Origin: Thermodesulfovibrio sp.
Lineage (GTDB): Bacteria; Nitrospirota; Thermodesulfovibrionia; Thermodesulfovibrionales; Thermodesulfovibrionaceae
Direction: 5' to 3'
Length of the DNA: 64,000 nt
Assembly: GCA_020725335.1 (NCBI GenBank)
Contig: DYFF01000002.1
Coordinates: 1-64,000, forward strand
The position numbers and the translations under genes are program-made. Below are positions 28,565 through 31,222 of this stretch, one piece after another; positions within the stretch are counted from its first letter, which is position 1, and every line of letters begins with the position of its first letter. The notes beneath the pieces were generated by a model. It had not been told where the DNA came from. It was given only the letters and a program-made list of their open reading frames with translations, and searched no databases.

Positions 28565-29302
28565 ATGCAGATAATTCCAGCAATTGACCTTAAAGATGGC
28601 AAATGTGTAAGACTTCGTCAGGGCAAGTTTAATGAAGTCACTGTCTATTACGACAAACCCGAAGATGCAGCATTAAGATGGCAGAATGAAGGGGCTCAGG
28701 TCCTTCATGTAGTTGACCTTGATGGTGCAAAAGAAGGAAAAATCAGTAATTTACACTCAATAAAAAAAATCAGGGAAGCTTTCAGGGGTGACATAGAGGT
28801 TGGTGGAGGAATAAGAAGAATTGAGGACATTGAGTTGCTATTATCATCAGGTATTGATAGAGTTATTCTTGGCACAATTGCTGCTCAGTCCCCTGAGTTT
28901 GTAAAAGAAGTATGCCAAAAGTTCCCCGAACGAATTATTGTAGGCATTGATGCAAAGGATGGGTTTGTGGCAGTAAAAGGCTGGGTTGAGCTTACAGAAA
29001 TAAAAGCTACTGAGCTTGCTTTAAGAATGCAGGATTATGGAGTTTGGGGAATTATTTATACAGATATAATGAGGGATGGAATGCTTACAGGACCGAACAT
29101 TGAGGCAACAAGAGCACTTGTTGAGGCGGTCAAAGTTCCTGTAATAGCCTCAGGTGGCGTTTCTTCTCTTGAGGATATAAAAAGACTGGCTGAGATTCCA
29201 AAGCTCTGGGGCGTGATAACAGGCAAGGCAATTTATTCTGGTGCAATAAATTTAAAAGAAGCTTTAAAGATTGTAAAGGCAGACGGAATAAAAATACGAT
29301 GA
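28565..29302 (+). CDS. hisA: HisA, ProFAR isomerase of histidine synthesis
   Basis: A 245-residue (beta-alpha)8-barrel enzyme catalysing the Amadori rearrangement of ProFAR to PRFAR. Catalytic Asp8 (IPAIDLKDGK) and Asp129 (VGIDAKDG) and the phosphate-binding VGGGIRR and ASGGVSS loops are conserved. Its product is the substrate of HisF, encoded about 1.1 kb downstream. In between lies a segment unrelated to histidine synthesis. The next ORF starts at the ATGA overlap at its stop codon. Confidence 0.96.
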   Translation: MQIIPAIDLKDGKCVRLRQGKFNEVTVYYDKPEDAALRWQNEGAQVLHVVDLDGAKEGKISNLHSIKKIREAFRGDIEVGGGIRRIEDIELLLSSGIDRVILGTIAAQSPEFVKEVCQKFPERIIVGIDAKDGFVAVKGWVELTEIKATELALRMQDYGVWGIIYTDIMRDGMLTGPNIEATRALVEAVKVPVIASGGVSSLEDIKRLAEIPKLWGVITGKAIYSGAINLKEALKIVKADGIKIR

Positions 29303-29502
29303 TTGAAACATCAAGAAGTAAAATTAAAGAAAGATGCAAAATGTTTTGTGTATTTTGTGGGAAAAAGATAGAGGGACTTAAATGGGAAACAGACAGCAAT
29401 TTTAGATTTTCCGTAACCGAATATGAATGTGATTGTGGTAAATTTATTAGATTTATAGATACAAAAGGGACAGATTTATATGCAACTGTAACTATAGATT
29501 AG
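29299..29502 (+). CDS. Small zinc-ribbon-like protein, unknown function
   Basis: A 67-residue protein starting at an ATGA overlap with hisA; an alternative start at ATG 29341 gives 53 residues beginning MFCVFCGKK. Four cysteines form CVFC near residues 17-20 and CDC near 44-46, a plausible though irregular metal site. I do not recognise a family. It belongs to the segment separating hisA from hisF. Because its start is coupled to hisA, its first codons may descend from whatever gene originally followed hisA. Confidence 0.5.
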   Translation: MIETSRSKIKERCKMFCVFCGKKIEGLKWETDSNFRFSVTEYECDCGKFIRFIDTKGTDLYATVTID

Positions 29503-29534
29503 AATTCAAATAGAATAGTTATTACAAAGTTATA

Positions 29535-30272
29535 ATGAGACAATATGAAGCAGTCATAAAAGTTATGAAAGAAAACGGAGGGTTCGCCACTCTTGGTTTT
29601 CTATACCAAGAAGTTTTTAAAATAAAAGATTGTGTATGGAAAACTAAAACCCCTTTTGCAAGTATCCGACGAATTGTTCAGGACGATAGATTTTTCTTTA
29701 AAATAAAACCAGGACTCTGGGCATTAAAAGAGTATAAAGACAAGTTACCTATAAATCTTCTTCCTCAGAAATCAGGTGTAAGACAACGGGAATTTAATCA
29801 TAGCTATTATCAAGGACTACTTGTAGAAATCGGAAACCATAAAAATTTTCAAACTTTTGTTCCTAATCAAGATAAAAATAAAGAATATTTAAATAGAAAA
29901 CTTGGCGACATAACTACAATTGGCAAATTCTACAAATTTAGTTATGACCATATAGTTCAGAAAGCCCAAACGATTGATGTTAGTTGGTTTAATTTAAGAA
30001 AAATGCCAGAAGCATTTTTTGAAATAGAATATTCAACCGATATCCAGAGTTCTCTATTAAAATTTGTTGAGTTACAAGATTTTAATGTAAACTTTGTTAT
30101 CGTGGCAGATAAATTACGAGAAAAAGAATTTAATACAAAGTTGTCTTTAAATGCATTTTCTGCAATTAATAAGAGGGTTAAATTTATGAGCTATGACAAG
30201 GTTTCAGATTGGCATACGAAAACTTATGAATTGATGGTTATAGAAAAGAATATAGGTGTTTATTTTCCATAA
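29535..30272 (+). CDS. Putative restriction-like nuclease with N-terminal winged helix
   Basis: A 245-residue protein. Residues 1-70 (YEAVIKVMKENGGFATLGFL, then ASIRRIVQDDRFFFKIKPG and LWAL) look like a HARE-type winged helix found with restriction and chromatin proteins. The remainder resembles a PD-(D/E)xK nuclease: GLLVEIG near 95, LGDIT near 128, IDVSWF near 153 and FFEIEYSTDIQSSLLKF near 167. The nuclease call rests on pattern memory only. No methyltransferase partner is in the window. TATAAT overlaps the ATG and there is no ribosome-binding site. It sits between hisA and hisF, and a foreign gene fragment follows immediately. Confidence 0.55.
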   Translation: MRQYEAVIKVMKENGGFATLGFLYQEVFKIKDCVWKTKTPFASIRRIVQDDRFFFKIKPGLWALKEYKDKLPINLLPQKSGVRQREFNHSYYQGLLVEIGNHKNFQTFVPNQDKNKEYLNRKLGDITTIGKFYKFSYDHIVQKAQTIDVSWFNLRKMPEAFFEIEYSTDIQSSLLKFVELQDFNVNFVIVADKLREKEFNTKLSLNAFSAINKRVKFMSYDKVSDWHTKTYELMVIEKNIGVYFP

Positions 30273-30382
30273 GATGGATCGCTGCCGGTGATACACAAAT
30301 TGACAGAATTATATTTGCTGCTGCAGGTAGAAAATATCCAGCACCTGAAAGGTATTCAAAACCTTTAAATTATGAGGAGTAA
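30272..30382 (+). pseudogene. Orphan C-terminal gene fragment upstream of hisF
   Basis: Directly after the nuclease stop, another frame is open for 36 codons to TAA 30380. It starts RWIAAGDTQIDRIIF and ends APERYSKPLNYEE. There is no start codon or ribosome-binding site for it, yet its end overlaps the hisF ribosome-binding site (GAGGAG) as a cotranscribed gene would. The composition looks protein-coding. I infer it is the 3' remnant of a gene that once lay between hisA and hisF. I cannot name the family. Confidence 0.45.
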
Positions 30383-30385
30383 CCT

Positions 30386-31222
30386 ATGCTTGCAAAGCGC
30401 ATAATACCCTGCCTTGATGTTAAAGATGGAAGAGTTGTAAAGGGTGTAAACTTTCTTAATCTCCGGGATGCAGGAGACCCTGTTGAGAATGCCCTTTACT
30501 ATGATGAGGAAGAGGCTGATGAGCTTGTATTTCTTGATGTAACAGCATCCCATGAAAAGAGAAAGATAATTATTGACGTAGTTGAAAGAACAGCATCAGT
30601 TGTATTTATGCCCCTTACTGTTGGTGGTGGTATAAAAACCCTTGATGACATCAGGGATTTGCTTAATGCAGGGGCGGATAAGGTTTCAATAAATACAACT
30701 GCTGTAAAAGACCCCTATTTCATTCAAAAAGCTTCAACGCGATTTGGTTCTCAGTGTATAGTAATTGCGATAGATGCAAAAAGAGTTGACAAAGCCTTTA
30801 ATCCAAAATCCTATCCGCCTGAGTCATGGTTTGATGATAGAGAACTTAGTGATGTGCTTTATAGAGAAGATTCTCGTTTTGTTCTTTCCACCCATGGTGG
30901 AAGACTAATGAGACCAATTGATGCAATAGCTTGGGCAAAGAAGATGGAAGAATTTGGTGCAGGAGAGATTTTGCTTACAAGCATGGATAGAGATGGCACT
31001 AAAGAAGGCTATGACATAGAACTAACACGCGCAATTTCAGAGGCAGTAAGCATTCCCGTTATTGCCTCAGGAGGTGCTGGCACACTTGAGCATCTCTATG
31101 AAGCCTTTGCTTTTGCAAAGGCAGATGCAGCGCTTGCGGCATCCATATTTCATTTCAGAGAGTATTCAGTTAGAGAGGCAAAGGAGTTTTTAAAACAAAA
31201 AGGAATTCCAATAAGACTATAA
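30386..31222 (+). CDS. hisF: HisF, imidazole glycerol phosphate synthase cyclase subunit
   Basis: A 278-residue barrel enzyme that uses ammonia from HisH to convert PRFAR to imidazole-glycerol phosphate and AICAR. Catalytic Asp11 ([15 protein letters not shown]) and Asp130 ([10 protein letters not shown]) are at their canonical positions, with VGGGI and [10 protein letters not shown] phosphate loops. It is about 25 residues longer than usual owing to an in-frame insertion at about residues 136-165 ([20 protein letters not shown]) on the loop after Asp130. hisH is not in the window. gltX follows after 10 nt. Confidence 0.95.

Follow-up and report, generated by a model that had tools for sequence, protein, structure and literature searches.

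A solitary winged-helix and PD-(D/E)xK-type nuclease between hisA and hisF of Thermodesulfovibrio, a candidate methyladenine-dependent restriction enzyme

Results

The window, that is, the whole stretch of 64,000 nucleotides analysed here, comes from a Thermodesulfovibrio genome (G000) in which hisA (28565-29302) and hisF (30386-31222) are the left and right borders of an inserted segment. Three ORFs occupy the segment, all on the forward strand like the two his genes, and each was found where the initial annotation had placed it. The first (29299-29502) encodes a Cys-containing protein of 67 amino acids; its ATG overlaps the hisA stop codon (ATGA) and its dN/dS is 0.24. The second (29535-30272) encodes a 245-residue protein, hereafter the nuclease. 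The third (30272-30382) has 36 sense codons. The nuclease is a real gene and not a chance ORF: many genomes encode homologs that align with almost all of it at 47-93% identity, and its dN/dS against the one congener that shares it (G002) is 0.08. As initially proposed, it stands in the window without a methyltransferase partner. Its neighbours are hisA, the two small ORFs and hisF, with no intact cognate methyltransferase beside it; the gene at 27944-28543 matches the generic Pfam models Methyltransf_31/25/11 and no DNA methylase model. The genome yielded no D12 or DpnII-type gene, and its N6_N4-type methyltransferase genes, few in number, lie elsewhere.

The architecture of the nuclease was predicted with AlphaFold2 from an alignment of 63 sequences (pLDDT 91.9). 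In the model, a winged helix formed by residues 1-70 (29535-29744) is followed by an alpha/beta domain, residues 81-242 (29775-30260), which reached a pLDDT of 95.2 when folded alone. The winged helix part matches known winged helices, that of DpnI among them (4kyw, Z 7.2 over 65 residues, VIA-align). The best matches of the alpha/beta domain by the same method are AF1548, R.BspD6I2, LmuA, EcoT38I, BstEII and BsaWI, with Z of 6.7-7.9; values under 8 are modest and weak taken alone, and nucleases, restriction enzymes and related ones, occupy most of the top ranks. Foldseek returned no match in the PDB with E <= 0.001. One viral Foldseek hit below the E limit superposes poorly and was discarded.

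Across 82 homologs no variation occurs at D113 (29871-29873), D148 (29976-29978), E163 (30021-30023), K176 (30060-30062) or D182, and E165 (30027-30029) is either E or D. The predicted active site (29976-30062) thus reads D148-x14-E163-x-E165 with the invariant K176, the ExE and not the ExK version of the motif. In the winged helix, W35, T37-P40 and R45-Q49 are invariant or nearly so. The protein had been described beforehand as a HARE-like winged helix joined to a PD-(D/E)xK-like nuclease. The winged helix and the fold hold, since the structure predicted for 29535-30272 contains a PD-(D/E)xK-type core; the HARE label falls short, as the match to HARE-HTH (PF05066) stays below the Pfam cut-off (13.7 vs 25.9 bits; 18.5 bits in a Halobacterium homolog), and the motif is ExE in place of ExK. 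With this modelled core and a D...(D/E)x(K or E) predicted active site, the protein can be placed in the PD-(D/E)xK superfamily, and by fold and conserved residues it resembles a winged-helix/PD-(D/E)xK restriction enzyme and probably acts as one.

Sequence profiles say little about its family. The NCBIfam search gave no match, the DpnII model (PF04556) did not match, and a Pfam scan with E up to 1 returned only the sub-threshold HARE-HTH and Telomerase_RBD, with no DpnI/Drg-type family; we took Telomerase_RBD, low-scoring and under its cut-off, as a chance match. The PADLOC library gave a hit to REase_II PDLC03534, a Type II model (E=3e-10, residues 89-223). With no Pfam match and its domains in reverse order, the nuclease falls outside the DpnI/Drg sequence family; the Pfam cut-off excludes it from the HARE-HTH proteins, and it does not form part of a complete Type II system.

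Scanning genome contigs recovered at least 214 related loci from many phyla. The best 80 of these 214 share 53-71% identity with the nuclease over almost its full length and are spread over Nitrospirota, Patescibacteria, Bacteroidota, Ignavibacteriota, Chloroflexota, Spirochaetota and further groups; the relative on a Halobacterium plasmid shares 47%. Phyla are intermixed on the nuclease tree, which argues for frequent transfer, and the neighbourhoods of the loci are very diverse. By these comparisons the nuclease belongs to a family without a name, horizontally spread, that no Pfam or NCBIfam model matches over its cut-off. No relatives were found in phage records or viral contigs, and a phage origin was consequently set aside. 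Some loci deserve separate mention. In G016 (locus L035, 6238-6450, reverse strand) we observed a truncated copy of which just the winged helix remains (residues 1-64, at 77% identity), with a relic of a methyltransferase C-terminus nearby; this decaying locus keeps the same order. Plasmids of Caballeronia and Listeria (L071, L072) encode solitary "type II restriction endonucleases" of about 420 residues with a distantly similar nuclease domain; insertion sequences and genes for metal resistance or a copper oxidase adjoin them or lie close by, and again no methyltransferase is annotated.

The initial annotation had interpreted the segment between hisA and hisF as an insertion, and gene order in the genus bears this out. 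The two genes are adjacent or nearly so in four genus mates (G005, G007, G008, G011), and hisA is present in every genus mate. In three others (G004, G014, G015) a 99-residue nucleotidyltransferase and a 155-residue HEPN-like protein, both identified by Pfam matches below the curated cut-offs, lie between them. The nucleotidyltransferase alone separates hisA and hisF in G012, a short HEPN remnant does so in G009, the contig of G006 begins inside the nucleotidyltransferase, and in G001 the two genes are about 14 kb apart. Only G002 shares the cassette, with the region of the 67-residue ORF, a nuclease of 93% identity and the 36-codon ORF in identical order. Judged by gene order, the nuclease cassette is a lineage-specific insertion and, because the content of the junction varies among genus mates, the junction is an insertion hotspot of which the cassette is one occupant. 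At loci L056, L057, L058, L059, L060 and L061 the nucleotidyltransferase/HEPN pair, which is toxin-antitoxin-like, occurs whole or as remnants in several species. The 3' end of hisA in the window (29230-29302) is unusual (..GGAATAAAAATACGATGA) and resembles the last nucleotidyltransferase codons of L059 and L060. This resemblance is possibly a relic, possibly chance; the common stretch (GGAATAAAAATA) is too short and A+T-rich to count as a nucleotidyltransferase remnant.

The 36-codon ORF had been considered the C-terminus of a resident gene, most of which the cassette would have replaced. The comparison does not bear this interpretation out, and its outcome is the one named beforehand as refuting it: G002 has the identical order, no relative searched has an intact gene for the fragment, and the ORF evolves as coding sequence. 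Searches with the 36-residue peptide in 61 genomes, the collected loci and plasmids gave a match to the G002 counterpart only; a weak peptide match at L051 was rejected, since it lies opposite a Lon-like protease gene. The genes that relatives carry at this junction, the nucleotidyltransferase/HEPN pair, are not its source either. Between the window and G002 the ORF has accumulated 8 synonymous and 4 non-synonymous changes (dN/dS 0.11, p=4e-4), a codon pattern that shows purifying selection. The G002 counterpart has 37 codons and starts at an ATG overlapping the nuclease stop, where the window has ATA. Hence, rather than a gene remnant, the ORF is likely a small partner ORF decaying in the window.

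Small ORFs are common beside the nuclease: under a loose ORF criterion, one abuts it in 58 of 81 loci of relatives, and they belong to several unrelated families. Those at L074, L075, L076, L078, L085, L087, L089, L092, L096, L103, L137, L142 and others encode 57-106 residues and mostly lie downstream; at L137 the protein directly after the nuclease belongs to DpnD/PcfM (PF14207). Such ORFs could encode an accessory or an inhibitor of the enzyme. The 67-residue Cys-containing product upstream is a possible zinc-ribbon partner; in G002 its ORF carries an in-frame TAG, which makes it dispensable there.

Broken methyltransferase genes recur beside the relatives. A methyltransferase or DpnII-type sequence is present no more than 3 kb from the nuclease in 31 of 81 loci, and the same queries gave 0 matches on 406 kb of control DNA. 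Upstream of the nuclease there are 22 methyltransferase remnants, 13 of them DpnA/CcrM-like, 8 of the D12 class (Dam-type) and one, at L080, the N-terminus of a third type. All 22 are 3'-truncated and all are co-oriented with the nuclease. The DpnA/CcrM-like genes, immediately upstream of the nuclease, end early, after about 60-230 codons, and in 12 of the 13 the stop codon falls in the interval from 21 nt ahead of the nuclease start to 4 nt inside it. The D12 genes are cut off at residues 26 to 288 of 304. One of these arrangements is intact in an operon of G077, formed in this order by a D12 methyltransferase (PF02086), DpnII (PF04556, 2e-97) and an N6_N4 methyltransferase (PF01555). At four loci (L111, L114, L122, L149) the nuclease occupies the position that DpnII has in G077, flanked by a D12 gene broken at its 3' end and an N6_N4 gene broken at its 5' end. 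The nuclease copy of G077 itself (L098) has a stop at codon 13. A full-length DpnII gene was found in only 2 of 57 carriers, G077 and G101. On the nuclease tree the methyltransferase fragments need at least 6 and at least 8 changes, so the association has been repeatedly gained or lost.

This association has exceptions. In G101 (L131) an intact nuclease adjoins an apparently intact DpnA/CcrM-like methyltransferase and a DpnII-family gene, at L148 an apparently intact DpnA/CcrM-like gene lies downstream of the nuclease, and phage-type Dam genes follow it at L086, L113 and L117. Most loci, the window included, have no methyltransferase relic. A Dam-family gene occurs somewhere else in the genome in about 8 of 50 carriers. 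Two of these genes have EcoRV-type restriction genes as neighbours and four have others of Type II, with specificities assumed. A strict genome-wide exclusion of Dam-family genes by the nuclease is thus not seen and was not used as proof.

Discussion

We propose that the nuclease of the window is a solitary m6A-dependent restriction enzyme with the reverse domain order of DpnI, carried by a horizontally acquired defence cassette; we estimate the probability of this reading at roughly 55%. The earlier suggestion of a modification-dependent or otherwise novel defence element is thus plausible, and the truncated methyltransferases of the relatives give it comparative support. As the window shows no methyltransferase relic, m6A dependence is carried over to its nuclease from these relatives. 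According to the proposed mechanism, the N-terminal winged helix would read DNA and the C-terminal PD-(D/E)xK-type domain would cut it. Host DNA, lacking the methyl mark, would be spared, while incoming DNA methylated at adenine, with GATC-type (Dam/DpnII) as the most likely context, would be bound and cleaved. DNA cleavage, methylation dependence, the GATC context and an anti-phage function are what we infer for the nuclease. Modification dependence would explain both that the nuclease needs no methyltransferase and that its relatives are found again and again up against broken adenine methyltransferase genes or in their place. We find the main argument for an enzyme cutting methylated DNA in the contrast between a nuclease kept by purifying selection and adjoining methyltransferases that are repeatedly destroyed.

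Adenine-methylation-dependent restriction has few known architectures, namely DpnI, Drg and winged-helix fusions. DpnI and the PD-(D/E)XK-wH enzymes such as FcyTI and Psp4BI have the same two kinds of domain as the window nuclease, are of similar size (254 residues in DpnI) and are mostly solitary. The winged helices of DpnI and the window nuclease match structurally, as described above. DpnI differs in that no sequence-family match links the two proteins and in the domain order, which is reversed: its catalytic domain comes first (PMC4117772), whereas the window nuclease begins with the winged helix. In the PD-(D/E)XK-wH group, frame-shifted methyltransferase genes have been described beside some of the mostly solitary enzymes (PMC11037411). 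The solitary state typical of DpnI and Drg holds for the window nuclease, with L131 and L148 as exceptions among the relatives. The dpnD gene belongs to the dpnI locus, and the DpnD/PcfM protein after the nuclease at L137 recalls that arrangement. In Neisseria, the dam-replacing gene drg truncates dam in some strains, and its product cuts GmeATC (PMC4269198). Drg is thus a solitary nuclease whose gene interrupts and truncates that of an adenine methyltransferase, and the relatives of the window nuclease behave alike; no Pfam match links the window nuclease to Drg, however, and no methyltransferase relic accompanies the window copy between hisA and hisF. The plasmid enzymes of about 420 residues, similar to REase_II PDLC03534, show weak similarity in the nuclease domain only (about residues 74-230, about 25% identity), are longer than the window nuclease and gave a HARE-HTH match in neither of the two scanned.

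Other explanations have to be weighed against this one. An ordinary Type II enzyme that cuts unmethylated DNA, with its methyltransferase encoded elsewhere, or lost and the enzyme silent or weak, would be in keeping with the Type II model matched in PADLOC, with the N6_N4-type genes elsewhere in the genome of the window and with the apparently intact methyltransferases retained at L131 and L148. We consider it unlikely. None of the 22 upstream methyltransferase neighbours is intact, and G050 carries an intact nuclease with neither a D12 nor an N6_N4 match. Loss of the methyltransferase would kill the host if the enzyme were active, and the nuclease is under purifying selection (dN/dS 0.08); were GATC its target, the window alone would expose 88 sites.

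The nuclease might instead sense another mark, such as 5-methyl- or hydroxymethylcytosine or a phage base, and the broken adenine methyltransferases would then be bystanders in defence islands. HARE-HTH domains have been viewed as more likely sensors of cytosine marks (PMC11037411), and a weak HARE-HTH match is present here; moreover, many carriers tolerate Dam-family genes elsewhere. Against it, the relics are specifically of adenine methyltransferase types and DpnII-type operons, in a single orientation and abutting the nuclease, and we judge this explanation more doubtful still. That the nuclease is just a selfish mobile gene, landing widely and also in decaying methyltransferase genes with no fixed partner, agrees with its very diverse neighbourhoods and with a hotspot that also takes nucleotidyltransferase/HEPN pairs, but is very improbable, because random landing would not be expected to leave all upstream relics in one orientation, most DpnA/CcrM-like ones running up to the nuclease start codon, or to put the nuclease in the place of DpnII at four loci.

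Pneumococci harbour one of two systems, DpnI or DpnII (PMC3573125). Relatives of the window nuclease take the place of DpnII between the two methyltransferase genes; differences from DpnII-type operons are that the window nuclease does not match PF04556 and that the loci with the replacement keep no intact methyltransferase set. Perhaps, and we advance this tentatively, the family repeatedly turns DpnII-type operons from "methylate self, cut unmethylated" into "stay unmethylated, cut methylated" by replacing the restriction gene and truncating both methyltransferases, which would be a second, independent switch of the DpnI/Drg type. If this is true, the switch between two opposite ways of using DNA methylation has happened recurrently. 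The model predicts that the nuclease cuts methylated and not unmethylated DNA. To m6A-dependent restriction, the family would add a reverse domain order and a readable history of broken methyltransferases.

Site frequencies in the window were considered separately. GATC is depleted to about the same degree in carriers and non-carriers of the genus, and its avoidance was dismissed as evidence. GGCC and GTAC are depleted as well, and all three are likewise depleted in most of the genus relatives sampled. CTAG is almost missing from the whole window, with 3 sites (observed/expected 0.02).
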